Assembly: GCF_009796765.1 (NCBI RefSeq)
Contig: NZ_CP047023.1
Coordinates: forward strand, 3,269,501-3,333,500
Reading direction: 5' to 3'
Source: Paraglaciecola sp. L3A3
GTDB taxonomy: Bacteria > Pseudomonadota > Gammaproteobacteria > Enterobacterales > Alteromonadaceae
DNA length: 64,000 nucleotides
The notes under the pieces are model-generated. The model was given only the letters and a program-made list of their open reading frames with translations. It searched no databases and was not told the DNA's origin. Shown here in pieces: positions 4,861 through 36,238 of the stretch (position 1 is the first letter of the stretch; the number at the start of each line of letters is the position of its first letter). The translations under genes were made by a program, and so were the position numbers.

Positions 4861-5589
4861 TTATTTGTTGTTCGCCGCCGACCATCCTATCAACTTTTGT
4901 AAATGTATGGTTGAGCTCAACATAAGATGAATAACTTGTAAAAGACCGGATTGATGGGCTTTTTTCAAAGCTGCGCCGGTTAATTTATCAATGGCCTTTT
5001 TATCAAAACCGTATAATCCATTTAAATCGACTTTGCCTCTATTTGGGATCTCTACTGTTATTGTCACAGGTTCAATCAGTTTTAGATCTTCGGCTTCTTT
5101 AAGTAATGCGGCCGTATAAGGCACTCCTCCCATTATTTGTGAAAAAGTCGTCTCTATTTTCTGCAGATATTCTGTTTTATTACCCTGTTCATCAAACAAG
5201 GCTGCACCTTTCTTTTTATTCACTTGTTCAGCAGCAACATCAATTGCAAGATGCCCTTGATCCATTTTATTTTTATCAGGCATGTAAGCTTGAAATGGAC
5301 GTCGAATAATATCTAAAGGCATATATGTCGCACGCCAATTATTACCATCTAAATACAAGTTTTCGCCAGCGTCAAAACCTAAAACAGCGGTTAATTGCAG
5401 CTCACCAGAACTAGGGCTTTTAGTCATAAAAATAGCGTATTCGTGAACTAAGGTATTTAACTCACTAACAATAACACTCGACACATTTACTCTATTAAGT
5501 TTGGTATTTAATAGACTAGTGTCGATCTTAAGATTTTTATGTATTTTGCTGTCTAACAACTCAAAAGTACTATTTGTTGATTCAGTCAT
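4861..5589 (-). CDS. SapC family protein
   Basis: 242 residues, no signal peptide. The middle shows the SapC pattern: a hydrophobic strand with EYAIFMTK, then LTAVLGFDAGENLYL, a W..TYMPLDIIRRPF segment, LAID, and the acidic ALFDEQGNKTEYLQ block before a helical ...LLKEAEDLKLIEP region. The family was named after a Campylobacter surface-layer locus gene, but its members are small soluble proteins of unknown activity. They are often found beside PrnA-like halogenase and TonB-receptor genes in Caulobacter, Xanthomonas and Alteromonadales. The start has a good GAGGGA ribosome site. The gene is divergent from halogenase H1, and the shared 372-base gap contains two copies of the TTGTTAACAA palindrome. 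Family assignment is fairly firm; function is unknown. Confidence 0.8.
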   Translation of the reverse strand: MTESTNSTFELLDSKIHKNLKIDTSLLNTKLNRVNVSSVIVSELNTLVHEYAIFMTKSPSSGELQLTAVLGFDAGENLYLDGNNWRATYMPLDIIRRPFQAYMPDKNKMDQGHLAIDVAAEQVNKKKGAALFDEQGNKTEYLQKIETTFSQIMGGVPYTAALLKEAEDLKLIEPVTITVEIPNRGKVDLNGLYGFDKKAIDKLTGAALKKAHQSGLLQVIHLMLSSTIHLQKLIGWSAANNK

Positions 5590-5741
5590 ATATCCCTCAA
5601 TTAAATTAATTAATACCGCAGAGGTATTTTGTTTTTTTAAACTAACAGCTCACATTGACTGAATATTATTCGAGTCTGCAAAGTAAGTGTATGATTTGAT
5701 AATTCTGTTGCTAGATATTAACGTAGATCAGAAATGAAACC

Positions 5742-5755
5742 AATTGTTAACAATT
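5742..5755. promoter_or_regulatory. putative operator AATTGTTAACAATT (sapC side)
   Basis: A perfect 14-base palindrome, 153 bases upstream of the sapC start. The same TTGTTAACAA core occurs upstream of H1, TBDR1 (twice) and TBDR2. Recurrence in the control regions of functionally linked genes suggests a repressor or activator site. No regulator gene for it is visible in the window. Confidence 0.6.
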
Positions 5756-5872
5756 AATTTAAATCCCTAAAACGCCAAATAATGATGTATTCAAGTATTA
5801 ATAGAAATTTTTAAACCAGCATATTTGAGCAATATCATGTAACACATATTCTAATTTAGTCCTTTATTATGT

Positions 5873-5884
5873 ATTGTTAACAAT
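5873..5884. promoter_or_regulatory. putative operator ATTGTTAACAAT (H1 side)
   Basis: A perfect 12-base palindrome, 78 bases upstream of halogenase H1. It lies directly after a TATTAT (5865-5870) that could serve as a -10 box, so a bound protein would sit at the transcription start region. It has the same core as the sapC, TBDR1 and TBDR2 sites. Confidence 0.6.
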
Positions 5885-5961: not shown

Positions 5962-7428
5962 ATGAGCAACAAGATAAATAAATTGGTTATCCTAGGTGGT
6001 GGTACTGCTGGTTGGATGGCAGCAGCAATGATTTCAAAAACTCTAACCAAACTAGATATTACCTTAGTAGAATCTGATCAAATTGGTACAATAGGTGTCG
6101 GTGAAGCCACTATTCCCAGCTTACATTTTTTTAATGACATTTTAGGTCTCAACTCAACTGAGTTTACCAAACAAACCTCTGGCACTTTCAAACTCGGTAT
6201 CCAATTTGAAAACTGGCATAAACAAGATGCCAGTTACTTTCATGGTTTTGGTTCAACAGGTTTAGGCATGTGGGCAGCCAATTTTCATGAATATTGGAAA
6301 CGAGGCCTTGATTTAGGTATTTCCAAACCTTTTAGCCGTTATAATTTTGAAGCTCAAGCTGCACTTGACAATAAATTTGCCCATCAAGCAAACGGGGTGA
6401 ACTTTGCTTATCATCTAGATGCTAGCCTTTACGCTAAGATGTTAAAACAAGAATCCATTAAAAATGGCGTCACTCGTATCGAGGGCATGGTCAATCAAGT
6501 TCATACGGATCCTATGAACGGCAATATCACTAGCCTTGAATTAAAAGACGGGCAAAAAATTGAAGGGGATTTATTCATTGATTGCTCTGGATTTAAGGGG
6601 CTACTTATTGATGAAACCTTAAAAACCCCTTTCACTGACTGGTCACATTGGTTACCTATGGATCGCGCGATTGCCGTACAAACCAAATTAACCAATTCGC
6701 CAGCCCCTTACACTCGTTCCATAGCTCATCATGCAGGTTGGCAATGGCGCATCCCCTTACAGCACCGTATGGGTAATGGCATAGTCTATTCCAGTCAATA
6801 TATGAATGATGATGAAGCAAAGAGTATGCTGTTATCCAGCATTGAAGGGGAAACTCTGACTGAACCAAGAGTAATCAAATTTAAAACAGGTCATAGAACA
6901 CAGCTTTGGAACAAAAACTGTATTGCCATGGGCTTAGCCGGCGGATTTATCGAGCCTTTAGAATCCACTGCTATACACATTATTCAACAAGGGATCATGC
7001 AGTTGATCCAATATTTCCCAAGCAATGATATCAACGAATTGCAAGTGGCTGAGTATAATGATTATATGTGCCGTGACTACAATGAAATTAAAGACTTTAT
7101 CATTTTGCATTACTGCCAAACAGAAAGGGAAGACTCACCTTTTTGGAAGTTTTGTAAAAATATGAATATACCTGATTCTTTAAAAGCCAGAATGGAATTA
7201 TTTAAAAAGACAGGCCGATTTGTACAAAAAAGAAATGAAATATTTGTCGATTCTTGGTTACAAGTAATGATAGGTCAAGGTCTAGTGCCAGATGTACATC
7301 ACCCTATTGCAGATGAATTAACTGAACCGGCATTAGCAAATTTTTTAAAGCAAATAGAAAATGATATTCAAGCAAAAGTGCAACAAATGCCCACTCACGG
7401 TGAGTATTTAAAGTCTATTAGTAAATAA
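5962..7428 (+). CDS. flavin-dependent (tryptophan) halogenase-like protein H1
   Basis: 488 residues of the PrnA/tryptophan halogenase family (PF04820), FADH2- and O2-dependent enzymes that oxidise halide and halogenate an aromatic substrate. Seen: the FAD-binding GGGTAGW at 12-18; the GVGEATIP loop; FKLGIQFENW with Lys77 at the place of the catalytic Lys79 of PrnA; GWQWRIP (Trp260, Trp262) matching WxWxIP; and FIEPLESTAIH, whose Glu matches catalytic Glu346 of PrnA. All hallmarks are intact. The substrate cannot be told; no flavin reductase, NRPS or PKS is nearby. The ATG start has GTGAGG upstream. It converges on LP1 with a shared terminator and is divergent from sapC. It most resembles H5 in motif spacing. 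Confidence 0.85.
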   Translation: MSNKINKLVILGGGTAGWMAAAMISKTLTKLDITLVESDQIGTIGVGEATIPSLHFFNDILGLNSTEFTKQTSGTFKLGIQFENWHKQDASYFHGFGSTGLGMWAANFHEYWKRGLDLGISKPFSRYNFEAQAALDNKFAHQANGVNFAYHLDASLYAKMLKQESIKNGVTRIEGMVNQVHTDPMNGNITSLELKDGQKIEGDLFIDCSGFKGLLIDETLKTPFTDWSHWLPMDRAIAVQTKLTNSPAPYTRSIAHHAGWQWRIPLQHRMGNGIVYSSQYMNDDEAKSMLLSSIEGETLTEPRVIKFKTGHRTQLWNKNCIAMGLAGGFIEPLESTAIHIIQQGIMQLIQYFPSNDINELQVAEYNDYMCRDYNEIKDFIILHYCQTEREDSPFWKFCKNMNIPDSLKARMELFKKTGRFVQKRNEIFVDSWLQVMIGQGLVPDVHHPIADELTEPALANFLKQIENDIQAKVQQMPTHGEYLKSISK

Positions 7429-7517: not shown

Positions 7518-9755
7518 CTAGTTTGGAATAGCAATCAAACGTAGATTATTAATGTAATATTGAGCATTTGCTTGAGTAAATGTGATATCAAGGGTCATCG
7601 TTTCTTGCGACCAATCGATTTCAGCGCTTCTGCCGTAATTCTCAGAAATAATCACATCTTGTGGCATAATGTTAGCAGCCCAAGTAATAGGATTATTACT
7701 AGCAGCAATACTGTCTACGCCATTTGATAAACTCACGCTATAACCAACAGAATCAGCTAACCCCAAAGCAGCATGATTGATTAGTTGACCTTCTATAGAT
7801 AAAACGTAACGAGCATTAGATTTAATCGCGCCAGCTTTAAGAGGTAAACTCACTGTGACTGATGACTCAGCGCCAACATCAACGAACAGCTTTTTATCGC
7901 CAGCGTCATCACGAATTTCCACAACACCTGCGTTAGACACAATAGCTTCGTTATTTTCAAACAAACCTATATTATCTACTAAGATATCATGCACAGCCGT
8001 GTCGATACCGCCGTATTCAACCACAGAAATGTCATCAAAGTGATGTACCGCTCTTGGATCATATTGTCCAATATCCCATTGCAGAGTTGAACCTTCATAA
8101 CCAGCCCATGCACCCATATGCGTACCGACTAGAGTGATAATTTCTTTCCACTCACCAGCTGGTTGTACCGCAGGACGAGCTGCATTCCAAAACTTATTGT
8201 TTAAAGTAGTGTTAGTTACCCAAACTGGAGAAAACGGGTTAGCAGAACTAGGCAAGTCTTCTGGGTTTCTTAAACCATAAGAAAATGCGTATTTTTGACC
8301 TGCTTCTAGGGTAGCAATGTCATCAAGACCAATATAACAAATAGCCCCATCGAGCAGTAACCCATAATTACCAGACCGCGCAGCGTCTTCTGAAATAAAG
8401 ATCCCTTGATCACCACCACAGTTCCAGTTATGGGCGTAACCGAAGGTAAAAGTAGCAAGATTAGCTTGGGTAAATTGACCAACATATAAAGGGTTTTCTA
8501 AATCAACATTCGACGCAACAACAGCCCCTAAGTTAACTTGTTCTCCTTCAACCATGATAGATAAAGTACGCTTACCATCAGTTACGTTACCATTATCATC
8601 CGCTACGGTATAAATCACTTCAGCCGCTTTAAATGTTTTACCCACTTTAGCTTCTGTGAAAAAAGCATGAGAATCGATTGTCACAGTACCGTTTGCTTCA
8701 TCAATATCTAAAATACCAAAATCTAGATCAGAAGTTTTACCATTGACTGTTACATCACTAATGACAATTTCATCTCCTTCACGCTCAACAATCCCCTGTT
8801 TTAAATCAACAACAGTAACGCCTGAGGTTTCAGGAACAATTTCATTAGTAAAATATTCTTCTACTTTAGGTGAACCAGGTATGTCTTCAACCGCCAAAAG
8901 GGTAAGAGATAAATCACGTGAAAGTGCGTGATTATGATCATTCACATCATAGGTAAACTTAAAGTCATAACTTAAACCGCGTGTTAACAAGCTAGAAATT
9001 GAAGTGACATCAAACTCTACTTGTTGTGTTGTATATGTCACATCATCCTCTGCGTCGTCAGGTGTACCCATATCATTCACTTTTTCAACATCAACTATAG
9101 AAAAGGCTAGGTCAAATGGATTGGCTGCGTCAGCAACGATATTAGATGCAGACAATACCGCATCTTGAGCATCTTGATCTGTGACTCCCGTTAATAATTC
9201 CAAGCTAATGGTGTCATTATCTAACGTGCCACCAGCTGATAGCCCAGCTTCAAATTCCGGTGCAAAGTCTTCACCTACCAACTCAACCGTCACTTTACGC
9301 GCTACACTATGTTCACCATCTGAAATATTATACTCAGCAACAACTGATAATATTTGATCGCTATCAACCTGAGCTTCTGCCAAAATTGGACGATAATTAA
9401 TAAAATTACCGTCTATCACTACTGCGCCAGCTACCAGCTCCAAATCACTGGTGATAACATTTCCTGATGTATCTTTAATAGACGCAGTCAAAACAACGTC
9501 TTTAACTGTCAAGTAATCCTTATCTGCGTCTTTAGCCACAGTATCGTTGGTTGTATTACCTGAGGTAGTTGTACCTAATAAATCAACAACTTTTAATTCC
9601 CACTTTTCAGGTAAAGATACAAAAATATCACCACCGTGGGTAGGAGCACTAGTATTTGGTTTTGCTTCATATTCATAATCAGGTGTATTACAACCAGTTA
9701 AGGCTAATAACACCGAGCCGGCTAATAAAGCATGAGATTTTTTAAATGTTTTCAT
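7518..9755 (-). CDS. large lipoprotein LP1 with Ig/cadherin-like and CBM-like domains (TBDR1 partner)
   Basis: 745 residues from the ATG at 9753-9755. An in-frame TTG five codons earlier exists but has no better ribosome site. The N-terminus MKTFKKSHALLAGSVLLALTG-C is a clear lipobox signal peptide. Several repeated beta-rich segments follow (...YNISDGEHSVARKVTVELVGED..., ...YTVADDNGNVTDGKRTLSIMV...), which look like cadherin or bacterial Ig folds. Two C-terminal jelly-roll-like units end in HFDDISVVEY and YYINNLRLIAIPN, a finish common in CBM4/9-type carbohydrate-binding domains. It follows TBDR1 by 65 bases in the same direction, and LP2 follows TBDR2 likewise, so a surface binding partner of the receptor is likely (inference). 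There are no catalytic motifs. Confidence 0.7.
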   Translation of the reverse strand: MKTFKKSHALLAGSVLLALTGCNTPDYEYEAKPNTSAPTHGGDIFVSLPEKWELKVVDLLGTTTSGNTTNDTVAKDADKDYLTVKDVVLTASIKDTSGNVITSDLELVAGAVVIDGNFINYRPILAEAQVDSDQILSVVAEYNISDGEHSVARKVTVELVGEDFAPEFEAGLSAGGTLDNDTISLELLTGVTDQDAQDAVLSASNIVADAANPFDLAFSIVDVEKVNDMGTPDDAEDDVTYTTQQVEFDVTSISSLLTRGLSYDFKFTYDVNDHNHALSRDLSLTLLAVEDIPGSPKVEEYFTNEIVPETSGVTVVDLKQGIVEREGDEIVISDVTVNGKTSDLDFGILDIDEANGTVTIDSHAFFTEAKVGKTFKAAEVIYTVADDNGNVTDGKRTLSIMVEGEQVNLGAVVASNVDLENPLYVGQFTQANLATFTFGYAHNWNCGGDQGIFISEDAARSGNYGLLLDGAICYIGLDDIATLEAGQKYAFSYGLRNPEDLPSSANPFSPVWVTNTTLNNKFWNAARPAVQPAGEWKEIITLVGTHMGAWAGYEGSTLQWDIGQYDPRAVHHFDDISVVEYGGIDTAVHDILVDNIGLFENNEAIVSNAGVVEIRDDAGDKKLFVDVGAESSVTVSLPLKAGAIKSNARYVLSIEGQLINHAALGLADSVGYSVSLSNGVDSIAASNNPITWAANIMPQDVIISENYGRSAEIDWSQETMTLDITFTQANAQYYINNLRLIAIPN

Positions 9756-9820
9756 AATTATATTTACCAATATCTGTCAATTCCATGCACGGGCCTTAGC
9801 CCGCACATATCGTAGTATTC

Positions 9821-12800
9821 TTAGAAGTTTACACGGACACCAAGACGGTATGTTGTACCTACTTTATAACGTGTATACGTACGATGTTGAGGGGCATCCC
9901 CCTCTAACGGATTACCTTCTACTAGATTAGTAAAACCTCCGTTCCCATCTGATTGAACTTGTAAAGTTCGGCTAGTGAAATAAGTTCTATAGGCCTCATC
10001 GGTCAAGTTGATCGCTTGGAAACTAACAGACACATTGTCCATAACCTGCCAATTTGCTGACAAGTCTAGCGTTTGCCTACCTTCATTCCAGATCGATCCA
10101 TTATTCCAATAACGTCCCCCTTGATTAGTATTCCAGTCGCGCCCCACTAATGAATCAGAACTGCCACGGAAACTCACGTTAATAGAATGACCGTTTTGCT
10201 CCCAGAAAAACGATGCGTTATAGCTATGCTCTGGTGTATCGGCAACTGGATAAGCAAATGGGTTGGCGTCATCAATCTCTGAATCATAACTGCTATCTTG
10301 ATATGTATAGTTGGCAGATAAACCAAAACCATTGGTCCACTCAGGTAAGCCAAAGTCTTCTGATAAGAAGTCATAAGTTTGCACATAACCAATCTCAAGA
10401 CCGGTAATAGTGGCATCTTCAGCGTTAACAGTTTTAGTCACACTAGGCTTGGCACAAAGGTCGCGTAAATCATTACTCATGATAGTCGGATCAGTTGCCC
10501 ACCAAGCAAAATCAGTAGTGGTCATTAAACCAAGACATCCTTCAAGACCATAGTTTTCTGATGCACTATCAGTTTCATCTACCGTCATTACTAGGTCATT
10601 GACACTTGCAGGATTAACATTGTCATCACGCACATCTAAGATATATTGATTGGAAGTTTGTAAATCAGTAAAGTTAGACATGTCTTTACGATACAACGCC
10701 ACGCTCAACATACCCGTATCAGAGAAATACCATTCAAAGGATAGATCTAAGTTATTCGATGTAAGCGGTTCTAACTGAGTATTATACGACGTAACGGAAC
10801 CCACATTTGGATTACCCGTGCCCCAATACCCCCCTTCTGTGACTTTATAACCAGGACGCAGTAAATCAATTTCTGGTCGAGTCATAGTCTTAGAAATAGC
10901 GAAACGACCAATCATTTCTTCAGAAAAAGCGTAATTTAAGTTTAAGCTCGGCAATACATTTGAGTAACTATGAGTGCCAGAAGTAGGCGTAGCTTTTAAA
11001 GATTTATTATCAGTTACTGTGTCATACGGGGTCGTATCATTAGCTGCAAAGCCTCCATCCCAAGTGGGTAATTCATCATATGCGTAAAAACGGCTACCTC
11101 TAACATCTGTATACATCCACATGTTAAACCAATTAATACCATAATCTGCGTTAGCAGGCCTGGTTAACGTGTTTGTTTCATCATTATAGAAATCGTCATA
11201 AGCTTGAGCAAAAGTTGCATACTCAGGATCATGACAAGCGCCTTGATCTGGAATACGTACCCATGTAGAAGGATCTGGACCTGCGCTAGTGTCCCAACCT
11301 AAACCATCAACACGTTGATATTTATTGTTATATCCACCACCTTCCATACTTGGTGTAAATGGACGACATTGGGGTAAATCAGTATTACGTAAATCTCTTA
11401 AGGTAACGCGGTTAAAATCAAATTCAAATTGTGGGCGGTTAGGATCACCATAAAAACTAAAGCCATTGTAGCCATTAGCTTCAACCTCTGTTTTCACATA
11501 ACGTAGACCTATGTCACCCGTTAATGCGCCATCTAAGGCTTCAAAATTAAACTTTAAATACGCTGCAGAAGTATCTATATCAGCAGAACGAGTTTCTGTA
11601 TTGTCTACGTCTCTAACCAGATCATCAGCCCCTAATAATGATTCTCTCGCTTTTTTAATATCAATCGGTGCCCAACCACTGGTAGCACTACTAGAAGCGT
11701 ATCCTAAGGACTCCATGAAATTATCATATTCCATAGGCTCACCAGCGATTAGGTCACCGGTAATATCCATCATTGTACCGCTAACAATAGTCACTAAAGA
11801 ACCATCAGGTTGCTCTACTACCGAACCTTCTGCAACTGACGTATAGTTATATGCTTGATTATCAACAAACTTAGTACGGGTAGATGTTTTTACACCAAAC
11901 TCAACAGAAGTGATACCAAACGCATCTAAATCGTAATCGAAATCGATTTGTGCGTTTTTAATTTCATCTTCAACGGTTACATCTGTTTCCCGAATATAAC
12001 CTAAGAAAAAGCTTTTTGTATCCGCAGGGTTAAAACCAGTTAAACCAGTGTTATCCCAATTGGCCGCTCTAAGCACGCCTTCTTCATCATAATAATCGTC
12101 GAGGTTATCACCAAAATCTATAATATCTTCACCATGGATCATGGTACAGGTTACACCTGTTGTACAATCGTAACCTACAGGCTGAATATCTGCTCCGGCA
12201 TCATAAAGCATGCCCTGCGTCACTTGTGCCCAGTTTTGCATAACAGTATAAGCATTGCCTGGTTTACTATTAGATGTACTTTTTGACATGCCCACTAAAG
12301 CAGACATACGTAATGAATCAGTCAGCTCAGTTTTAAAGTTTAATGTCGCACTAAAGTTTTCATTATCAGTACCACCATCAGAGCGAGCCATATTACCTGC
12401 GCCATAACGATTCTGACGTTTCATCATAGTACTGGTACTAGTATCTACTTGATACCACTCATAAGGATCAGTTTGCGGAGCAACTGGACGGTTATCAGCA
12501 GAAGGTAGGCCTTCAATTTGATTTAATTTACCAGCGTTTGCACGGGCTTGAATAGAATCATAAGTACGTACTAAATCTTGTTTACTAAAATTCACATCAA
12601 ACATTAATTCAGATGTATCAGTGGGTAAATATTGAACACCTAAACTTAAACCTTGACGGTTACTTTCGTTTTCATGCAATTCATATTGAGTGTTTGCTGG
12701 CTCAATTGCTCTAAAATTAGAAATCACATTACCGTTTTGGTCAAGCCCTTGTCTTAAGGTCGGTGTCGCCTGATAATTATTTGCACTATATTGATCTCGG

Positions 12801-13465
12801 CGATAAGCATTAGTTTCATCAACGACAGTTAATGCTACACCTAAAGTTTCATCTAAGAATTTTTCACTAACTGAAAACTGGAATTTATGATTGGCTTCTT
12901 CAGAGAAGTCGCTATAACGACCTTGCACCGTTGCCGAACGAACATCATTGACTACATCAAGAGGTCTTACAGTCACTAAGTTAACTGATGCACCTAACGA
13001 ACCTTCGTCATGATCGGCACTAGCGGTTTTAACCACTTCTAATTTAGAAAGTGTATCTGCAGAAAAAGAGCTTAAATCTACAGCCTGTGAAAAATCGGTA
13101 GAAGTAAGAGTTTGTCCGTTAAGGGTAATAGCATTTTGGTTAGCATCAGCACCACGTACTGTGATTTGAGTACCTTCCCCATCATTACTCACCACAGTTA
13201 CACCTGTCACACGCCCTAGAGCATCTGCGATATTTTGGTCGGTAGACTTACCTATATCTTCAGCGTTAATTGTGTCTCTAATGCCTGAAGCAAATCGTTT
13301 ATCGTTAATAGATTTTTTCAAACTACCTTTGATACCAGTAATTTCGATTACTTCAAGCCCATCTTCTTTTTTGTCTTCTTGTTGAGCGAAAGCATTTATG
13401 CTTGTTGCGGCCAAGACCGCTATGCATATAGAGCTGAGTTTAAAATTGTGTTTGGTCTGTGTCAT
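9821..13465 (-). CDS. TonB-dependent receptor TBDR1
   Basis: 1,214 residues. A signal peptide ends near AFA-QQ (about 27). A TonB-box-like VIEITG segment is followed by a plug domain with KSTDQNIADALGRVTGVTV and ITVRGADANQNAITLNG, and then a long 22-strand-type barrel ending in the aromatic-terminated ...YRLGVRVNF needed for outer-membrane insertion. There is no N-terminal secretin/STN domain, so sigma/anti-sigma signalling is not expected. The length is at the upper end for the family and fits receptors of the oligosaccharide/glycan type (TIGR01782-like) seen in Xanthomonas, Caulobacter and Alteromonadales. GGGA precedes the ATG. Two TTGTTAACAA palindromes lie upstream. LP1 is downstream. 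The transported ligand is unknown. Confidence 0.9.
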   Translation of the reverse strand: MTQTKHNFKLSSICIAVLAATSINAFAQQEDKKEDGLEVIEITGIKGSLKKSINDKRFASGIRDTINAEDIGKSTDQNIADALGRVTGVTVVSNDGEGTQITVRGADANQNAITLNGQTLTSTDFSQAVDLSSFSADTLSKLEVVKTASADHDEGSLGASVNLVTVRPLDVVNDVRSATVQGRYSDFSEEANHKFQFSVSEKFLDETLGVALTVVDETNAYRRDQYSANNYQATPTLRQGLDQNGNVISNFRAIEPANTQYELHENESNRQGLSLGVQYLPTDTSELMFDVNFSKQDLVRTYDSIQARANAGKLNQIEGLPSADNRPVAPQTDPYEWYQVDTSTSTMMKRQNRYGAGNMARSDGGTDNENFSATLNFKTELTDSLRMSALVGMSKSTSNSKPGNAYTVMQNWAQVTQGMLYDAGADIQPVGYDCTTGVTCTMIHGEDIIDFGDNLDDYYDEEGVLRAANWDNTGLTGFNPADTKSFFLGYIRETDVTVEDEIKNAQIDFDYDLDAFGITSVEFGVKTSTRTKFVDNQAYNYTSVAEGSVVEQPDGSLVTIVSGTMMDITGDLIAGEPMEYDNFMESLGYASSSATSGWAPIDIKKARESLLGADDLVRDVDNTETRSADIDTSAAYLKFNFEALDGALTGDIGLRYVKTEVEANGYNGFSFYGDPNRPQFEFDFNRVTLRDLRNTDLPQCRPFTPSMEGGGYNNKYQRVDGLGWDTSAGPDPSTWVRIPDQGACHDPEYATFAQAYDDFYNDETNTLTRPANADYGINWFNMWMYTDVRGSRFYAYDELPTWDGGFAANDTTPYDTVTDNKSLKATPTSGTHSYSNVLPSLNLNYAFSEEMIGRFAISKTMTRPEIDLLRPGYKVTEGGYWGTGNPNVGSVTSYNTQLEPLTSNNLDLSFEWYFSDTGMLSVALYRKDMSNFTDLQTSNQYILDVRDDNVNPASVNDLVMTVDETDSASENYGLEGCLGLMTTTDFAWWATDPTIMSNDLRDLCAKPSVTKTVNAEDATITGLEIGYVQTYDFLSEDFGLPEWTNGFGLSANYTYQDSSYDSEIDDANPFAYPVADTPEHSYNASFFWEQNGHSINVSFRGSSDSLVGRDWNTNQGGRYWNNGSIWNEGRQTLDLSANWQVMDNVSVSFQAINLTDEAYRTYFTSRTLQVQSDGNGGFTNLVEGNPLEGDAPQHRTYTRYKVGTTYRLGVRVNF

Positions 13466-16108: not shown

Positions 16109-16111
16109 CTA

Positions 16112-16201
16112 TTAGCCCCTATTGCTAGAACTTAAGGGAAAAAAATGGGTATGGTTGCCAATTTCTTTCCTTAGCTCTTTAAGTACTTGCTGAGCTTGGA
16201 G
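16112..16201 (-). pseudogene. relic of the 3' end of an H4-type halogenase
   Basis: Read on the minus strand, this stretch encodes LQAQQVLKELRKEIG, then NHTHFFPLSSSNRG and a stop, in an open frame. It is almost identical to the C-terminus of H4 (LQAQQVLKDLRKEIG, SHTHFFPLSSNNRG). Everything upstream of it in the H4 frame is missing; dioxygenase sequence takes over from about 16204. It overlaps the last codons of that dioxygenase gene in another frame. It is the scar of a deletion or recombination after duplication of an H2/H4-type gene pair. Confidence 0.85.
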
Positions 16202-25560: not shown

Positions 25561-25577
25561 AGTGAAGGATGATTAAA

Positions 25578-28118
25578 ATGAAATTTAAATATAAAAATCT
25601 ATTAGTTCCAGCCATCATGACCGCACTATATGGTTGCGGTGGAGGATCTGATAATAAAGATATTGTTAAAATAGAAAATAAAACTGCCCCTATTTTGGAT
25701 GCATCTGCTCTTTTAGTTGAAGGTAATAGCGACGCTGTTGCTTATGCTGATGATGTAATTAAGTGGATGACGTCTACCTATGACAATGCAGATGGCAAGA
25801 TGGAATGGGAATATCGTTTTAAGGAAAGTGCAGGTGACTTCCCAAGTAACGATGCAAGAAACCCTGAACCTGTTGCGCATATTGAAATTGATTTATTAAC
25901 GGGTATTACCGATGCTGACAACGGGTCTAACTTACAAGTTAAAGATGTTCAATTTGTGTGGGAAGGCCCAAATTGTTCAAGTACCGTTGCAATAGCACCA
26001 GTTTACCCTGAAATGTGTAATCCTATTTTAGAGGCACTGGGCTTAATTGACGCAGAAGGTAATATCGTTAATACCAGCTTTGAACAAGAAGAAGATATAC
26101 GTGAGTATCAAAACTTACCGATTACCAATGAAGTGATTTATGGTTTCCAAATCAAAGAAACCTCATTAATGGTAACACCCTCTGCCTTTGCACCTATTTT
26201 GATAAACGGACAAACATCCCAGCTTCACCTTATTTATAAAGTGACAGATGGTGTATCCACTATTGATAGACGTATTAAAGTTGTTATCGACGGTGAAGAT
26301 GCCGCACCTGTATTCCTTCAAAGGTTTATAGACAGCGATGAGGTAGTAATTGATCCAGATACTGGTGAAAGCATCCCTCAAAGCGAAATTTCAATATCGC
26401 TTTCTGAAAAATCAGCACCTGTTCGATTCAATATTGCACATGGTATTTATGATCAGGATATTGAAGATATTCAAGAGCTAATAGCTAAAAAAGGCGACTT
26501 AACCGAAATTTACGAGACAGCACATTATGCTGTAGAACGTTTAAGTATTATTGGTATAACAGGTCCAGCTGGTATGCCTGCAGGTGTGTTTAACGACGTA
26601 AATTCAGTTTCTAGATGGACAGAAGAACGTGGTGTGACAGAGTACACGGTAGAAATAGATCCAGCACCTTACGCTGATTTGTTAATTCGTGGAGAAGAAG
26701 TAGATTTAGAATTTACTTTTCAAGTTACAGATGGTAACAACACTGTTGACCGTAGTTTCTTCGTGAATATCAAAGGTGCAGATTTAGTTAATCCGCCGGA
26801 GTTCAATGAGCCGACAACAGAAGTATCGATGTCAACTTCAGCATTTACTTCTGTATTTAGTTTACAGTCCGGGGCAATTGACCTGGATGGCGACAATATG
26901 GAAGTGGTTGATTTTGTAGCAACTGCTGGTAGTGATGGTTATGGTGTTGATTTGTCTAATCCTAACGTGGTTAGAGTTGACCCATACGGGTTCTTAAACT
27001 TAGCACCAGGTGAAGAACAGGTATTAAGTTACACTTATAAGTTGACAGATGGTTTGTTCACATCAGAAGAGCATACATTAAACATTACGTTAACTGGTGC
27101 TAACCACAACCTTTTCCACAAAGCTGAGCCTGCTCACAATGGATTTGAAACAGGTAGCCTAGACGGAAGTGCTTGGATGGGTGGAGACGGCGTTGTCTCC
27201 GTTGCCGCTGAAGCAGCTGCTGTTGGTGAGTATGGTCTGAACGTATCGGCGGACAGTACCTTCTTTGAAATTGATCAAACAGGTATTGACCAAGGCAGAA
27301 TCGAAGAAGGTGATGATTACTACATCAACTTCTACGGTAAACAGACCACAGCTTGGGGCGGTGTACGTGTTACTTTTAATAAAAATGGCGACACCAGCGA
27401 TAGCTTCCAAATCGAAGAATCACCGAATGGCGGCACAACAAATTGGGTAGAACATACCTTAACCTATTTGGACGCTGACGAGTTCTTCCAGCAGGATTCA
27501 ACATTCGATGTGACTTATCGTTTAGCCACAGGTACATACGATAACTTCTCTTTAGTGAAGTTCGGATATGCTAAATCTCGCGATTTAGTCCCAGATGGTG
27601 TATTTACCTCTGGTACTGCAGGCGGTTGGGCTGTATCTGGAGATGTAACCCTAGCGGTTACTGAAGATGCTAATAAAGTTCAAAACTCAGACGACCTGCA
27701 ATATGGACTTGAAGCAGCAGGTGGCGCAGGTGGTGGTGTGCTTTATTTGGATTCAAACACCCTAATTCAAGGTGGGATCAAAAAAGGCATGCGTTATATC
27801 TTGCAGTTTGATTTACGCAACCCAACTTATGCGGGAATAAATGGAGCTGACCCCTCTCCACTACTAGCAAGAATAGTAGATGAAGAGTCGGGTAACTGGG
27901 TACGTAAAGGCGCATTTTCTAAACCAAGTGCAACTGCTTGGAATACCTACTCATATCACTTAAATACACAATCTGTTGGTACCGATTGGAACGGTAGTCA
28001 GTATGCAAGCGATGTAGAGTTTGATTGGGAAAATGCAAAAGTTCGCGTGGAAATTAATATTCCAGCTAACCAAACATTCTATATAGATAACGTTAAGTTA
28101 TTCCCAGTACCTCAGTAA
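25578..28118 (+). CDS. large lipoprotein LP2 with Ig/cadherin-like and CBM-like domains (TBDR2 partner)
   Basis: 846 residues from the ATG at 25578. An ATG three codons earlier abuts its own GAAGG, so the second ATG, with that GAAGG nine bases upstream, is preferred. MKFKYKNLLVPAIMTALYG-C is a lipobox signal. The mature protein has repeated beta domains with TDGVSTIDRRIKVVIDGEDAAP and TDGNNTVDRSFFVNIKG units (cadherin/Ig-like). Two C-terminal jelly-roll-like units end YDNFSLVKFG and FYIDNVKLFPVPQ, as in CBM4/9-like carbohydrate-binding domains. It is the counterpart of LP1, with the same place after a receptor. A surface ligand-binding role is inferred. No enzyme motif is seen. Confidence 0.7.
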   Translation: MKFKYKNLLVPAIMTALYGCGGGSDNKDIVKIENKTAPILDASALLVEGNSDAVAYADDVIKWMTSTYDNADGKMEWEYRFKESAGDFPSNDARNPEPVAHIEIDLLTGITDADNGSNLQVKDVQFVWEGPNCSSTVAIAPVYPEMCNPILEALGLIDAEGNIVNTSFEQEEDIREYQNLPITNEVIYGFQIKETSLMVTPSAFAPILINGQTSQLHLIYKVTDGVSTIDRRIKVVIDGEDAAPVFLQRFIDSDEVVIDPDTGESIPQSEISISLSEKSAPVRFNIAHGIYDQDIEDIQELIAKKGDLTEIYETAHYAVERLSIIGITGPAGMPAGVFNDVNSVSRWTEERGVTEYTVEIDPAPYADLLIRGEEVDLEFTFQVTDGNNTVDRSFFVNIKGADLVNPPEFNEPTTEVSMSTSAFTSVFSLQSGAIDLDGDNMEVVDFVATAGSDGYGVDLSNPNVVRVDPYGFLNLAPGEEQVLSYTYKLTDGLFTSEEHTLNITLTGANHNLFHKAEPAHNGFETGSLDGSAWMGGDGVVSVAAEAAAVGEYGLNVSADSTFFEIDQTGIDQGRIEEGDDYYINFYGKQTTAWGGVRVTFNKNGDTSDSFQIEESPNGGTTNWVEHTLTYLDADEFFQQDSTFDVTYRLATGTYDNFSLVKFGYAKSRDLVPDGVFTSGTAGGWAVSGDVTLAVTEDANKVQNSDDLQYGLEAAGGAGGGVLYLDSNTLIQGGIKKGMRYILQFDLRNPTYAGINGADPSPLLARIVDEESGNWVRKGAFSKPSATAWNTYSYHLNTQSVGTDWNGSQYASDVEFDWENAKVRVEINIPANQTFYIDNVKLFPVPQ

Positions 28119-28233: not shown

Positions 28234-29715
28234 GTGCAAGAAAATATAACAAAAGTAGTAATAGCCGGCGGTGGTACAGCAGGCTGGATGACAGCGGTAG
28301 CTATGTCTCGGTTAATTAAAAATACCCAAGTAGTATTAATTGAATCTGACGAAATTGCTACGGTTGGCGTAGGCGAAGCTACTATCCCTACCCTACAATT
28401 TTTCCATGAAATATTGAACATCAATGAAGCTGAACTTTTAAAAGCAACGGGTGGCACTTTTAAGCTAGGGATTAGCTTCGAAAATTGGAAAACTAAAGAG
28501 CATAAATATTTTCATGCCTTTGGTGAAACTGGCAAAGGATGTTGGGCAGCTGATTTCCAACATTTTTGGTTAAGAGGTAAAAAACTCGGTTTAAAACATG
28601 AATTTGGGGACTTTTGTGTAGAACAAGTGGCGGCGCAAATGGATAAATTCGCTCGAGTCAAAAATAAGGGTATTAATTATGCCTATCACATTGATGCAAC
28701 AAAATATGCGGCGTACCTAAGAACGTTATGTGAAAAAAATACTAGCTTTTCAAGAGTTGAAGGGAAAATAGCCAGCGTTGACTTATTGCAAAACTCTGGA
28801 GAAATTGGAAGTTTAACCCTTGAATCTGGACAAAAGTTTGAAGGCGATTTATTTATAGATTGTACCGGTCAAAGGGCGTTATTGATTGGTGAGGCGCTAA
28901 ATACTCCCTTCGAAGATTGGTCACATTGGTTAGTAAATGACAGTGCTATTGCTGTGCAAACAAAATCAACTGAATCCCCCAAACCGTATACCCGCTCTAT
29001 TGCTCATGATAGTGGTTGGCAATGGAAAATTCCCTTACAACACCGCGTGGGCAATGGCATAATTTACAGTAGTAAATTTATGTCTGATACAGATGCCGAA
29101 AAGCATCTACTCAACAATATTGAAGGCGAAACACTTACCTCACCACGAAAAATAGCTTTTAAAACAGGTACACGTAAACTGCATTGGAATAAAAACTGTG
29201 TCGCCATTGGGCTTTCTTCTGGCTTTTTAGAACCTTTAGAATCAACCAGCATTCACCTTATTCAACAATCAATAATACGACTACTTAAGTTATTTCCGGT
29301 CAATGGACTACGCCAAGTAGATATAAACGAATTCAATCAGCAAACAGCTGTGGATATCGACTCTATTCGCGACTTTATTATTTTACATTATGTGGTCACC
29401 GAACGAAAAGACAGTCCCTATTGGCAATATCAACAAGAAATGCAATTGCCTGATTCACTCAAACATAGAATTGAATTGTTTAAACAATCGGGTCATGTAT
29501 GCCTTAAAAATGACGAATTATTTGAAGACTCTTGGATGCAAGTCATGATCGGCCAAGGATTAATCCCACAAAACTATCATCCTATTGTGGATAATATGAG
29601 TGACAATGAGCTGTTTAAATTTTTGAATGATATGCGAGAACTTGAATATAAACGCGCATCCTCCCTGCCCTCTCATCAAAAATTTATCGATCTATATTGC
29701 GCTGCAAAAAACTAA
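28234..29715 (+). CDS. flavin-dependent halogenase-like protein H5
   Basis: 493 residues, closest in motif spacing and wording to H1. It has AGGGTAGW (11-18), GVGEATIP, FKLGISFENW with Lys77, DWSHWL, GWQWKIPLQHRVGNG and FLEPLESTSIHL with the conserved Glu; all PrnA-family hallmarks are intact. The start is GTG with only a weak AGAG upstream. A TATAAT at 28205-28210, after the LP2 terminator, could be its own -10. The C-terminal SSLPSHQKFI echoes the endings of H1-H3. It is downstream of the TBDR2-LP2 pair, while H1 faces the LP1 end, so each receptor/lipoprotein pair has one H1/H5-type halogenase on its lipoprotein side. Substrate unknown. Confidence 0.85.
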   Translation: MQENITKVVIAGGGTAGWMTAVAMSRLIKNTQVVLIESDEIATVGVGEATIPTLQFFHEILNINEAELLKATGGTFKLGISFENWKTKEHKYFHAFGETGKGCWAADFQHFWLRGKKLGLKHEFGDFCVEQVAAQMDKFARVKNKGINYAYHIDATKYAAYLRTLCEKNTSFSRVEGKIASVDLLQNSGEIGSLTLESGQKFEGDLFIDCTGQRALLIGEALNTPFEDWSHWLVNDSAIAVQTKSTESPKPYTRSIAHDSGWQWKIPLQHRVGNGIIYSSKFMSDTDAEKHLLNNIEGETLTSPRKIAFKTGTRKLHWNKNCVAIGLSSGFLEPLESTSIHLIQQSIIRLLKLFPVNGLRQVDINEFNQQTAVDIDSIRDFIILHYVVTERKDSPYWQYQQEMQLPDSLKHRIELFKQSGHVCLKNDELFEDSWMQVMIGQGLIPQNYHPIVDNMSDNELFKFLNDMRELEYKRASSLPSHQKFIDLYCAAKN

Positions 29716-30554: not shown

Positions 30555-32207
30555 TTAGTCATTAAAATGTTTATTAAAGATCGCTTCCATTCTTGGATAG
30601 TTAACATCAGTTTCGTTATACAACTCTCGCTGTCTGACTAACTCTGTTTTAAGCTCTTTTATCACACCCACGTATTTAGGATCATTGTAGATATTGACCA
30701 ATTCATCAGGGTCATTTCTCATATCGTAAAGTTCCCAGCCTGCTGGTGTAGGTATTTTGTTTGGCTCAAGACCTGTCTTTTTAACCCACTTCTGATCGTA
30801 AAATGGAAATTGTTTTTCACGGTAGTTATCACCATAGAAAAATATCAACTTATAATCTTTACTACGTAAGCCTGTATGCGCCGGAACTTCATGATACATA
30901 CGATGCGTCCAATAACGATAAAAAGTAGCAGTACGCCAGTTGTCAGGCGTTTCACCTTTAAGTGCAGGGGTAAAACTACGGCCATGCATATATTCAGGTG
31001 TTTCTTGTCCTACCAAATCTAGCAAAAATGGTGCGTAATCAGTGTTATTAATCAATAAATCACTACGTTGACCCGCATTGTCGATGCCTGGGTGTCTAAC
31101 AATAAACGGCATTTGAATAGATTCATCCCATATCCAACGTTTATCTTGATAATCATGTTCACCTAACATCATGCCTTGGTCAGAGGTATAAACAATGATG
31201 GTGTTGTCGTATAAACCTTGATCTTTTAAGCTTTGAATTAAACGGGCAATATTGTCATCTACACCTTTAATACAACGTAAATAGCCTTTTACATATTCTT
31301 GATAAGCTTGGTGTGTGTATTCATCATCAGGCAAACTTTGATCAATTTTATAATACTGACCATAGTTACGTCTTGGATTACGTTTGGATATAGAGGTACC
31401 AATTTCATGAATTAATGAATCATTTTCACCGCGGGTCGCTTTTGAGCCAAAGGTATCCGGTACACCGTATAAATCTACTGGCTCTGGAATAGTCACATCA
31501 GCTAAATAATCATTATAACGAGGGGCATATTCAAAATAATCATGAGGCGCTTTAAACTGATGCATTAAGAAGAATGGTTTATCAGATTTACGATTTTTTA
31601 ACCAATTTATCGAGATATCAGTAATTATGTCTGAAGAGTGGCCTTTATATTCAGTGGTATTATTTGGCCATGGTTTATCACCTTGTACTCTAAAGTCAGG
31701 ATCAAAGTAATGCCCTTGACCAGGTAACACTTGGTAATAATCAAAAGCACCAGGTTCTTGTTTTAAATGCCATTTACCTACAATAGCCGTTTCATAACCG
31801 GCTTTTTTCATTTCAGTAGGTAAATATTGTTGGTCTTTACCAATGCCACCTTTTAAATCTTGTACTCCATTAGTTTGACTATATTGCCCAGTCAAGATTG
31901 TGGCACGACTTGGACTGCAGATAGAGTTAGTAACAAACGCATTTTCAAACACCATGCCTTCACTGGCTAATTTATCAAGATTAGGTGTAGGGTTTAATTT
32001 GGCTAAACGACTACCATAAGTACCTATGGCTTGTGCAGCGTGATCATCTGTCATGATGTAAAGAATGTTATAAGGTTTCTTTTCTTGTTTGACGACATCT
32101 TTGACAGCTGATTTTGTAGCTGTACTATCTTGCCCACAACCAACCAAGAACAAACTAAGCAAACTGATTGAGGTGTAACTACTCAATATTTTTAACGTTT
32201 TATTCAT
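30555..32207 (-). CDS. type I sulfatase, lipoprotein
   Basis: 550 residues from the ATG at 32205-32207, which has GGA eight bases upstream; the in-frame ATG four codons earlier has no ribosome site. A lipobox (SLFLVG-C24) anchors it to a membrane. ILYIMTDDHAAQAIG supplies metal-binding aspartates. NSICSPSRATILTG is the C-x-P-x-R sulfatase signature, in which Cys97 would be converted to formylglycine. GKWHLK and YTSDQGMMLGEH are further active-site motifs. It belongs to the S1 family of polysaccharide and glycosaminoglycan sulfatases; the substrate cannot be told. The maturation enzyme is not in the window. Two near-matches to the TTGTTAACAA operator lie upstream, so it may belong to the receptor/halogenase regulon. 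Confidence 0.88.
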   Translation of the reverse strand: MNKTLKILSSYTSISLLSLFLVGCGQDSTATKSAVKDVVKQEKKPYNILYIMTDDHAAQAIGTYGSRLAKLNPTPNLDKLASEGMVFENAFVTNSICSPSRATILTGQYSQTNGVQDLKGGIGKDQQYLPTEMKKAGYETAIVGKWHLKQEPGAFDYYQVLPGQGHYFDPDFRVQGDKPWPNNTTEYKGHSSDIITDISINWLKNRKSDKPFFLMHQFKAPHDYFEYAPRYNDYLADVTIPEPVDLYGVPDTFGSKATRGENDSLIHEIGTSISKRNPRRNYGQYYKIDQSLPDDEYTHQAYQEYVKGYLRCIKGVDDNIARLIQSLKDQGLYDNTIIVYTSDQGMMLGEHDYQDKRWIWDESIQMPFIVRHPGIDNAGQRSDLLINNTDYAPFLLDLVGQETPEYMHGRSFTPALKGETPDNWRTATFYRYWTHRMYHEVPAHTGLRSKDYKLIFFYGDNYREKQFPFYDQKWVKKTGLEPNKIPTPAGWELYDMRNDPDELVNIYNDPKYVGVIKELKTELVRQRELYNETDVNYPRMEAIFNKHFND

Positions 32208-32299
32208 TATATTTTCCATATTGTCACAATTCTGAACAAGTGTAATCGATTATAACCTTGAAATACAAACACTACTTTTTATATATGATAACAATGATT

Positions 32300-32309: not shown

Positions 32310-32370
32310 TTGCCAATCCTAATAAAACCAATGACTTACAATGGTAAAATTTAAAACAAGAAAACATTAA

Positions 32371-32380: not shown

Positions 32381-32473
32381 TCGACCCCACTCTTTTTTAA
32401 CAAAACCATAACACTATAAATATACTGAGATTGCAGCTAGTATGACGCATACTTTAGTTAACTATCATTACAA

Positions 32474-33475: not shown

Positions 33476-33572
33476 AAATATCTTTAACATATGCAATCTA
33501 GCGGTTTCAACCTCTCAGAATGTGTAATAGAGTAGCCTTGTTTTATACTCCCTTACCTAATGAGGTTTTTTA

Positions 33573-35129
33573 ATGGTAAAGACTGACTTATTCCACAAAT
33601 TTTTAGCCTGCCTAACTGGAATTGGTTCAAGTTTATGTTTGCTTTTTTTCATATATTCACATGTTTTACAAAACAAAATGGCAGAAGAAGGCGACAAAAT
33701 TTTTCAAGACTTATTAAATAGTGCTTCTACCGGCTTCGCGGTAATTAATCAACTAAATCAATTGGGCTTGAATACATGTTCTGAAGAAAATTTATTACAA
33801 ATGCGCAAGGCGCAATTTAAATCAAATGATATTAGGGATATAGGTTTTTTCATAGAAGATACGTTAATTTGTACCACAGGCGCAGGCATACTCACAAACC
33901 CAGTCAAAGAACGACAACATCACTTCTTTCATCAAGGTCACAAGTTTTGGTTTGGTCATACCTTAGAAACACTAGACCAGTCTGTTAAAGGGGTATTAAT
34001 TCGTAAAGATAAATACAATATTGTGCTTTCCTTTAACGGCTTATTAGATGAATACAAAACCTTTAATCATTATCAAATTGTTGCCAAAAAGAAAGACAAT
34101 TATATACACCTGCATGGTGAGCAAGGTATTTTTCAAGCTAAAGCATCAAATGATATAAAACACTTTTACATTGGCATTTTTTCACATGCGTTAGAGTTTT
34201 GTGATCCTAGCGGTAAAATTTGTATCGCGATAAAGCAACAAAACTTTACCGAACTAAAATTCAGTACTCTGCTGATAATCTTGTTCATAGTATCTGTGTT
34301 TACCGGCATCACAGTTTTATATATTTATGATAAGTACATTAACTACTTACGTAGTATGAATAGAAGGATTATTTCAGGTTTGCCTGCAAATCGTTTTATC
34401 CCTCATTATCAAGCCATAGTCGAATTAAAAACGGGGAAAGTAATAGGCTGTGAATTACTTGCTCGTTTTGAAGATAAAATGGGGCCACTATACCCAGATA
34501 AATTTATCCCAGTCGTGAGCGAACTCAACCTGTCTTGGCCCATGACAGAATATTTCATTCGCGCAGCTATTAAAGATTTTAGCCATATACAAACAGACGG
34601 TGCCCCCTTTTATTTGTCTATTAACGTTTTTCCTAAAGACATCAATAACCAAGATATTCTGAAAGCGCTAACATTACTCGAAAACATACCAGCCGACCTG
34701 CAAGTTTGTTTTGAAGTCACCGAAGATGAAAAATTACATTTTAATCAAGTAAGTAATACATTAGAGGCACTTTCAGCTACTAACATACAAATTTCTATTG
34801 ATGATTTTGGTACAGGTTACTCCAATTTATCCCAATTAAAATTGTTAGATATAGATACATTAAAAATAGATAAATCTTTTGTCGACGAGATTGAAACGGG
34901 CTCAATTCGTTCCACTTTTATTCCAACGATTATTTCTATTGCCGAAAAATTAAAGGCAGAAATAGTGGCGGAAGGCGTGGAAAATAAATTACAAGTAAAC
35001 GAATTATTAAAAATGAATATCAAATATGGCCAAGGCTGGTACTTCGCCAAAGCCCTACCCTTTAGCGAATTTCAAAAATATCTAACAGACAATAGTGACT
35101 ATCGATTTACTAATGATAAAGGTGAATAA
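33573..35129 (+). CDS. c-di-GMP phosphodiesterase with CSS-motif periplasmic sensor and EAL domain (PdeC-like)
   Basis: 518 residues. A TM helix at about 9-31, a periplasmic sensor to about 230 with NTCSEENLLQ (a CSS-like motif) and a second cysteine in LICTT, a second TM at about 232-250, then a cytosolic EAL domain. In E. coli PdeC such a pair of periplasmic cysteines controls the enzyme through disulfide state. The EAL signature is ELL (GCELLARFED). The other catalytic pieces are present: INVFPKD, FEVTEDE, IDDFGTGYSN, KIDKSFVD and EIVAEGVEN. Activity is therefore likely. It hydrolyses c-di-GMP to pGpG. It is monocistronic by context and lies between DUF3500 and the second dioxygenase. Confidence 0.85.
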   Translation: MVKTDLFHKFLACLTGIGSSLCLLFFIYSHVLQNKMAEEGDKIFQDLLNSASTGFAVINQLNQLGLNTCSEENLLQMRKAQFKSNDIRDIGFFIEDTLICTTGAGILTNPVKERQHHFFHQGHKFWFGHTLETLDQSVKGVLIRKDKYNIVLSFNGLLDEYKTFNHYQIVAKKKDNYIHLHGEQGIFQAKASNDIKHFYIGIFSHALEFCDPSGKICIAIKQQNFTELKFSTLLIILFIVSVFTGITVLYIYDKYINYLRSMNRRIISGLPANRFIPHYQAIVELKTGKVIGCELLARFEDKMGPLYPDKFIPVVSELNLSWPMTEYFIRAAIKDFSHIQTDGAPFYLSINVFPKDINNQDILKALTLLENIPADLQVCFEVTEDEKLHFNQVSNTLEALSATNIQISIDDFGTGYSNLSQLKLLDIDTLKIDKSFVDEIETGSIRSTFIPTIISIAEKLKAEIVAEGVENKLQVNELLKMNIKYGQGWYFAKALPFSEFQKYLTDNSDYRFTNDKGE

Positions 35130-35179
35130 TTAGGCTCTTTAGTTAAAAGATAAGAGCCATTACATATGAATATTAAAAA

Positions 35180-36238
35180 TCATTTGGATTTGGAATATTT
35201 TCCTTTTGTCACAAAATCAAAATCAAAACCCATTTCTCTTAATACATAATCTCGGATATCGTATGCATGATCCGGTGTAACAGTTCCAAATATCCCTTGT
35301 TTATCTGTAGGTAGATGGCTCATCGGTTCACCATTAATTTTAAATACAAAATGATCTACCAGTGCTTTCCAAGCTGACTTTTCTTCCTCAGAAAGGTGAG
35401 ATAACGTATACAAACCATGATACAAAAAATTCATTGGAGACTCTAACTTTCTAGTATCAGCAGTCCAAAAATAATTGACCAGCATACACAAATCCCCCTC
35501 TGAACGAACATTGTGCCACCAAAGGTTCGGAATATAGATTGCGTCTCCAGGCTCCAATTCAGCCACATATGCATTATCTAAAGCTTCTTGATACCGTGGA
35601 TGTTTGTCAAAATCTGGAGATGTGATATCTACCATACTCACGGCTGCACCTGCTATAGTGTGATTAAATGGAGCAGGATAAAGATTTTTAACTTGTTCTG
35701 TTGGAAATAAAGTAAAGGTTCTTTTACCACTAATTAAACAAGCTATATTATCGGTAGTATCAAAATGTGTAGAGATAACGGATGAATTCCCCAGCCACAT
35801 TCTTGGTGAAACGTCACGGCCAAAATCAAACTCAAGTGTGTTATCTTTAGCAAAATCACTTAAATGCTCAGACAATACAACGCCTCCAGCATAAATGGAC
35901 GCGTTGTCAGATTTCGATTGGGCAATATGACTTATTCGTTGTAAAAAATTAGAAAAGGAATAATCAACTTTATTGAAGTTAAAATCTTCAAATGATTCGC
36001 CAAAAAAATAACGGCCATGAGTATCTTCTGGAGCTTCAAACGCCTCTATTCCGTTTGTCCCTCCTGCAGATAATTTGAGTAAATAATCATACAAGCATTG
36101 CTCAGATTTATTTGCTTCTTTGACCGATAACCAATTGCTGACAAAGTTTTTCAAAACAACAGGTTTATGTGAACCTGTAATAATTTCATTAGCCGTAGTA
36201 GCCGTTAGCGATAAATCATATTCTTGAACTTTTTGCAC
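35180..36238 (-). CDS. JmjC/cupin_8 Fe(II)/2-oxoglutarate dioxygenase-like protein 2
   Basis: 352 residues, a close paralogue of the protein at 16179-17249, with conserved THFDTTDN (His158, Asp160), SGKRTFTLFPTEQVKNLYP (Lys172) and NLWWHNV (His242). It probably shows the original C-terminus (KGKYSKSK). The start is GTG with AGGGGCGAGG upstream, consistent with the GTG start of copy 1. The gene is cut off from upstream sequence by an IS630 whose end lies only about 38 bases before the start codon, so its native promoter may be displaced. It stands 6 kb from the nearest halogenase, with the sulfatase and other genes between; it was probably moved by rearrangement. Confidence 0.85.
   Translation of the reverse strand: MQKVQEYDLSLTATTANEIITGSHKPVVLKNFVSNWLSVKEANKSEQCLYDYLLKLSAGGTNGIEAFEAPEDTHGRYFFGESFEDFNFNKVDYSFSNFLQRISHIAQSKSDNASIYAGGVVLSEHLSDFAKDNTLEFDFGRDVSPRMWLGNSSVISTHFDTTDNIACLISGKRTFTLFPTEQVKNLYPAPFNHTIAGAAVSMVDITSPDFDKHPRYQEALDNAYVAELEPGDAIYIPNLWWHNVRSEGDLCMLVNYFWTADTRKLESPMNFLYHGLYTLSHLSEEEKSAWKALVDHFVFKINGEPMSHLPTDKQGIFGTVTPDHAYDIRDYVLREMGFDFDFVTKGKYSKSK

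Follow-up and report, generated by a model that had tools for sequence, protein, structure and literature searches.

Receptor-linked halogenases and the systems they resemble

The flavin-dependent halogenases Xcc4156 (6y1w) and BrvH (6frl) brominate free indole or model substrates. In the portions of their papers drawn upon here, the natural substrates of this enzyme group are described as not known; the BrvH authors, noting a very low turnover of indole, doubt that it is the natural substrate, and the open active site of Xcc4156 is considered one that might take peptides. The MibH-type peptide halogenases, which the same portion of the Xcc4156 paper cites, provide the nearest known chemistry to that proposed below, although Xcc4156 and MibH are just 26% identical and no precursor peptide was found at the locus described here. 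That locus lies in a window of 64,000 nucleotides from Paraglaciecola sp. L3A3 (contig NZ_CP047023.1, positions 3269501-3333500), part of a 5.31 Mb single-contig genome. It holds five proteins of the halogenase family PF04820 (H1 to H5), two TonB-dependent receptors (TBDR1 and TBDR2), two predicted lipoproteins (LP1 and LP2), a SapC protein and a cupin_8/JmjC 2-oxoglutarate (2OG) oxygenase (Cup1), with a second cupin_8 protein (Cup2) nearby. A model that read the sequence alone had drawn attention to these genes, and its account is referred to below as the original prediction.

The locus resembles the carbohydrate-utilization and polysaccharide-utilization loci that are built around TonB receptors (CUT/PUL-type loci), as it shares with them a TIGR01782 receptor accompanied by a predicted surface lipoprotein, and genes for glycoside hydrolases, LacI regulators and MFS transporters flank its relatives in other genomes. 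It differs in that its core consists of receptors and tailoring enzymes and lacks both hydrolases and inner-membrane transporters. With high confidence we read it as an uptake locus that carries an accessory halogenase cassette. Given such a cassette, whether its target is a protein is evenly poised, and the full reading, which we favor tentatively, is a notch less secure again: a doubled TonB-receptor/lipoprotein uptake locus, probably for glycans, in which the cassette enzymes would modify proteins linked to uptake and not the sugar.

Linkage of halogenases to receptors

Within the Paraglaciecola genome, PF04820 has 23 matches at 22 places, and 21 of these places are located within 8 kb of one of the 63 TonB plugs (all linkage distances were measured start to start). 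When the places are grouped, 10 of 11 clusters lie near a plug as compared to 1.9 expected, and none of 20,000 random placements gave as many as 10. The sole unlinked place (4755835) encodes a distant 419-residue protein within another kind of gene cluster. Six of the seven SapC genes are positioned within 2 kb of a halogenase, as are three of the four cupin_8 genes; the fourth is Cup2, at 7.2 kb. The receptor type is also distinctive, as TIGR01782 is matched by 14/14 linked receptors versus 20/49 unlinked receptors (Fisher p = 4e-5). Elsewhere in the genome, a cluster at 4548714-4562696 contains seven PF04820 genes flanked by two outward-lying TonB receptors, two of the seven encoding proteins that lack the catalytic lysine and glutamate; as this seven-gene cluster is present in the same genome, five halogenases per locus are not special. 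A decayed cassette was observed at 3455901-3456194, where a piece of a PF04820 gene, interrupted by two in-frame stops, adjoins an intact TIGR01782 receptor.

To place the locus among its relatives, other genomes of the phylum were surveyed. In a scan that scored the seven best candidates of each genome, the matches listed place PF04820 in 102 of the 199 genomes sampled, in many of them weakly. The neighborhood survey comprised 65 stretches of at most 20 kb around strong PF04820 matches in 25 other genomes (short stretches L014-L021 being excluded from the counts), and the controls were 20 stretches from seven of these 25 genomes, scored with the same local receptor hidden Markov model (HMM). 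A receptor was detected in 54/65 survey stretches versus 2/20 controls, and one of the two positive controls (L103, excluded from the control proteins) itself carries a receptor-cupin-halogenase cassette. The local HMM misses other receptor types; a partial Pfam check of five unlabelled proteins in four survey stretches added receptors in L069 and L071, and two control receptor proteins were also added, probably both in one stretch (L116). With this wider, incomplete check the counts are 56/65 survey stretches versus 3 or at most 4 of 20 controls (p below 1e-7).

The order of the genes is as regular as their association. A cassette gene directly adjoins the receptor in 51 of the 54 receptor-positive stretches, and in 42 it is located directly downstream on the same strand. 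Counted over stretches L022-L101 and L122-L201, the interval that separates a receptor from the next downstream halogenase on its own strand is empty in 58 cases and holds SapC and cupin_8 in 24, SapC in 7 and cupin_8 in one. The 80 named loci of H1 relatives contain a receptor in 69 cases, cupin_8 in 53, SapC in 31 and DUF6445 in 15, and at least 32 of the 37 full-length cupin_8 places of the relatives (the Paraglaciecola genome excluded) are within 5 kb of a halogenase. The TBDR-SapC-cupin_8-halogenase arrangement recurs across genomes, and the neighborhood survey, which the original prediction had named as a test that might refute it, reveals strong co-occurrence of halogenases with receptors, SapC and cupin_8. 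The remark in the original prediction that such genes occur singly beside receptors was an understatement, as 81 of 171 halogenase-bearing stretches (duplicates included, window excluded) hold two or more.

The five halogenases

H1 (5962..7428, plus strand, 488 residues, PF04820 E-value 5.5e-183), H2 (14585..16108, plus, 507 residues), H3 (18147..19670, plus, 507 residues), H4 (19674..21179, minus, 501 residues) and H5 (28234..29715, plus, 493 residues) match PF04820 with Pfam E-values of 1e-132 to 1e-183. In the order H1 to H5, the FAD-binding GxGxxG motif is at residue 12, 12, 12, 15 and 12, the catalytic lysine is at position 77, 79, 79, 82 and 77, the WxWxIP motif is at 260, 276, 276, 271 and 262, and the catalytic glutamate is at 334, 350, 350, 346 and 336. 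All four features, which had been claimed for each of the five proteins, are retained in 5/5; in H4 the sequence EPLEAT replaces EP(L/M)EST, such that alanine is substituted for the serine after the glutamate. Judged by their family and intact catalytic residues, H1 to H5 are predicted flavin-dependent halogenases.

The motifs of H1 to H5 are the same as those of Xcc4156 and BrvH. A tree of 140 sequences, which included five solved references, groups H1 and H5 with Xcc4156 and 9luq (support 0.994), whereas H2 and H3 form their own branch and H4 joins two tryptophan-halogenase references (support 0.998, 30 tips). The best Protein Data Bank match of H1 is Xcc4156, and because the end-to-end alignment of the two is nearly gapless, H1 probably retains the short loops that keep the Xcc4156 active site open. 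H3, in contrast, has 13 extra residues relative to Xcc4156 at a gap ahead of the conserved His-Asp-Ala stretch.

The cupin_8 and SapC proteins

Cup1 (16179..17249, minus, 356 residues) and Cup2 (35180..36238, minus, 352 residues) each match cupin_8 in Pfam at 2e-57. The original prediction described their iron ligands as intact, and H158, D160 and H242 of an HxD...H motif are indeed present in both. The cupin_8 family and this motif are shared with 2OG protein hydroxylases of the FIH and JMJD5 type, although the likeness of those enzymes to Cup2 is limited to ~130 residues of the catalytic core. Among solved structures, Cup2 is most closely related to FIH chains, with JMJD5 and JMJD7 lower and C2orf60 (3al5) also close. 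SapC (PF07277, 3.4e-50; 4861..5589, minus, 242 residues), which had been correctly named, opens the conserved core, and its AlphaFold2 model is confident (mean predicted local distance difference test score, pLDDT, 93.4). SapC was suspected to be a disguised 2OG enzyme because a DUF6445 or 2OG-FeII_Oxy_5 protein can occupy the slot between receptor and halogenase; this candidate was rejected, as a search for a solved fold that resembles the SapC model found none. Occupants of that slot include a TPR/2OG-FeII_Oxy_5 protein in Catenovulum (L206:7445-8965) and a DUF6445 protein in Sphingomonas (L210:8201-8896).

Receptors, lipoproteins and sugar context

Both receptor/lipoprotein pairs that had been proposed are supported by Pfam, TIGR01782 and the open reading frames (ORFs). 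TBDR1 (9821..13465, minus, 1214 residues) and TBDR2 (21973..25560, plus, 1195 residues) each contain a plug and a barrel and are 39% identical, and the two receptors score 491 and 539 bits against TIGR01782 (cut-off 310). Adjacent to them, LP1 (7518..9770, minus, 750 residues) and LP2 (25569..28118, plus, 849 residues) have a lipobox-like start by eye and matched no Pfam family. They are distant relatives of each other (23% identity, E = 1e-9). LP1 is matched in 9 of 31 genomes, its own included. The model of LP2 has a middling pLDDT of 69 and displays cadherin-like repeats; a CBM_4_9 domain is present in a 60% relative of LP2 and absent from LP2 itself.

The genes that surround such cassettes point to sugars. 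Among 94 proteins from the outer flanks of receptor-halogenase clusters (98 were selected, four being left out for a size limit), alpha-amylase was found 10 times, LacI 10, GH3 8, MFS 7, GH97 2 and GH10 2; none of these six families is among the 25 shown for 95 control proteins, in which each can therefore have at most one match. Twelve plasmid records, chosen by hand from 69 with a match, contain a receptor in 12/12 cases and a glycoside hydrolase in 11/12, the twelfth record adjoining a type VI secretion cluster. The enzymes at the plasmid loci include GH3, GH16, GH43, GH9, GH32 with amylosucrase, alpha-amylase with GH97, GH95, alpha-fucosidase and beta-glucosidase. One cassette in the Paraglaciecola genome has as neighbors an FGGY carbohydrate kinase and a protein that bears the glycerophosphate-oxidase C-terminal domain, and systems of the starch, fructan, agar, fucose and glycerol types are all represented among the cassette loci. 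Around the closest H1 orthologues (L122-L130, 68-77% identical to H1) there are agarase-CBM and GH43-like proteins (L122, Paraglaciecola algarum), GH16 (L126) and an enolase-superfamily protein (L127); we take these proteins to include GH50, GH117 and an anhydrogalactonate cycloisomerase.

Extent and history of the locus

Gene content was read from ORF lists and Pfam scans. From 4861 to 29715 the order is SapC, H1, LP1, TBDR1, H2, Cup1, H3, H4, TBDR2, LP2 and H5, the last of which closes the conserved core. Positions 4877-29702 are syntenic with a P. algarum locus that lacks H2 and Cup1, and a search of the P. algarum genome for a Cup1 relative found none. H2 and H3 are 77% identical and Cup1 and Cup2 75%, while the single P. 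algarum copy is 86% identical to H3 and 76% to H2. Because H2 and H3 are duplicates, the five halogenases count as four lineages, and the set looks like the product of one duplication of an H2 and cupin segment. With four lineages and two receptors, the earlier idea that five intact paralogues suggest distinct targets is weakened.

The original prediction had also treated 4861..36238 as one locus. Its gene content was confirmed, but the core ends at 29715 and Cup2 lies apart, as the stretch 29716-36238 (a pseudouridine synthase, a sulfatase at 30555..32219 on the minus strand, DUF3500, an EAL protein and Cup2) is outside the block common to P. algarum. Cup2 adjoins insertion-sequence genes at 36290-38715, namely DDE_3 with HTH and a Mutator transposase in two frames. 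Beyond these, 38893-48785 encodes a molybdopterin oxidoreductase, a nitrite/sulphite reductase-type enzyme and MoeA; these look like a gene group of the nitrate-assimilation type, unrelated to the cassette.

What the cassette may modify

The accessory oxidative cassette, which recurs on proteobacterial receptors, comprises SapC together with flavin-dependent halogenases and 2OG hydroxylases of the FIH type. In the proposed mechanism, the simplest one, the halogenases and hydroxylases would work in the cytoplasm, because no signal peptide was seen by eye in either, and would modify aromatic or other residues of a receptor, of a lipoprotein or of one of their partners ahead of export; within the same scheme, the target could also be a different uptake-linked protein. 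Such modification might influence how substrate is captured, how stable the uptake proteins are or whether the cell escapes phage. The hints of a protein target are that Cup2 is nearest to FIH chains and that H1 is nearest to Xcc4156, with its open and possibly peptide-accepting site. The imported sugar is an unlikely substrate for halogenation, because a flavin halogenase would find no ring to attack in starch, fructan, agar or glycerol. The original prediction had allowed for action on imported material or on proteins of the uptake system. As cassettes also occur in the sugar- and glycerol-type systems listed above, whose substrates mostly lack an electron-rich aromatic ring, the first half is unlikely; the second is the favored half, though the search for residue markers was negative and co-variation was weak.

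Several observations weigh against this reading. C2orf60, one of the close solved relatives of Cup2, is an RNA-modifying enzyme (an RNA hydroxylase). In the window core Pfam detected neither a glycoside hydrolase nor a transporter for sugars or a LacI regulator, there being just a sulfatase next door, and the agarase-like neighbors seen in P. algarum are not in the window, such that the link to glycans rests on relatives. Receptors are absent from 9/65 survey stretches in the wider check and from the fetched 17 kb around 7/9 of the closest H1 orthologues; H1-type enzymes therefore need not adjoin a receptor, and there is no strict pairing. Among the matches listed, LP1 relatives occur without a halogenase within 10 kb. 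In two alignments, no aromatic column stably separated 154 linked from 20 unlinked receptors, and their comparison gave subfamily residues. A tryptophan that marked linked receptors in one alignment (72% versus 15%, and 46% of the linked receptors of the Paraglaciecola genome) failed in an HMM-based alignment and was rejected. Halogenase and receptor distances are correlated overall (r = 0.39), but weakly within genomes (r = 0.15, reached by 165 of 2000 permutations). Finally, the enzymes of the H1 group act in vitro on free indole, according to the portions of the papers cited above.

Because the aromatic-residue and co-variation tests gave no support, a small-molecule product stays a serious rival. 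It would hold that a small aromatic metabolite (indole, a tryptophan derivative or a phenol) that the cell produces or encounters while growing on glycans is halogenated and hydroxylated, as a signal, in defense or for detoxification, and we consider it distinctly less probable than modification of an uptake-linked protein. Marine halide is plentiful and, like the H1 orthologues that have no receptor, counts in its favor. The bromination of free indole or model substrates by the close relatives BrvH and Xcc4156 does so too, tempered by the BrvH authors' own doubt about indole in the cited portion of their paper. A metabolite product leaves unexplained why separate paralogues reside on separate receptors for different sugars, and why an FIH-like enzyme is their partner. 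An improbable alternative is that the enzymes act on aromatic groups carried by the imported material, for example feruloyl groups, phlorotannins or bromophenols on algal or plant polysaccharide; several loci do resemble systems for algal or plant cell-wall glycans, but the cassettes also accompany genes of the glycerol, starch and fructan types, and the substrates of these are free of aromatic groups.

The halogenase family also has members that lack catalytic residues. Lysine or glutamate is missing in 39 of 319 unique halogenase-family proteins of the fetched loci, at least three of these 39 (L012, L031 and L062) being distant or poorly aligned frames and not clear halogenases. With duplicates removed and the window excluded, such a member is present in 22/22 stretches with four or more copies, 13/21 with three, 2/36 with two and 2/90 with one. 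As many of the 22 multi-copy stretches represent one orthologous locus in Erythrobacteraceae-like genomes, the number of independent events is smaller. It is possible that these proteins are conserved dead partners of multi-copy clusters. They would also suit the view that the whole family here consists of flavin monooxygenase-like proteins that have ceased to halogenate and act as redox or ligand sensors or as structural partners of the uptake regulon. This view is again improbable, as both residues are kept in 5/5 window proteins and 280/319 overall, and related enzymes are active brominases in the cited portions of their papers.

PF04820 enzymes are best known from natural-product clusters. 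A natural-product or ribosomal-peptide cluster is nevertheless very unlikely here, as no nonribosomal peptide synthetase or polyketide synthase (the original prediction was right on both), no carrier protein and no peptide-maturation family occurs among the scanned window ORFs, and a search for a precursor peptide among 42 intergenic small frames found no convincing conserved frame against the syntenic P. algarum locus, its one weak match (E = 0.003) overlapping the TBDR1 start.

Implications for halogenase biology

In the open-access literature, with most subscription journals outside the search, we recognized no paper that links these halogenases with sugar-receptor loci. The word 'halogenase' is absent from the main text of the papers on TonB receptors, sugar regulons and polysaccharide loci that were searched, including one on a red-algal locus of P. 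hydrolytica. A paper on iron limitation in Pseudomonas fluorescens does contain both 'tryptophan halogenase' and 'TonB-dependent receptor', as does a metatranscriptome paper that speculates on halogenases and virus receptors. Among 50,697 phage records, 61, mostly from cyanophages, encode H3-like proteins with up to 38% identity; it is speculation that phage halogenases might also target host surface proteins.

A broader proposal, which we regard as doubtful yet worth stating, is that a dedicated oxidative protein-tailoring kit in proteobacterial sugar-uptake loci halogenates and hydroxylates residues of TonB receptors or of their lipoproteins. Such a kit would join receptor-linked halogenases and their catalytically dead partners with SapC and with 2OG oxygenases, both FIH-type and others. 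If this were true, protein halogenation would be a widespread step of bacterial nutrient uptake, and the role of the orphan BrvH- and Xcc4156-type enzymes would be explained. The survey gives halogenases of the BrvH/Xcc4156 group a physiological address, namely receptor-linked cassettes with recurrent partners in sugar-uptake loci, and the question of their substrate becomes directly testable through the outer-membrane proteins of cells with and without the cassette.

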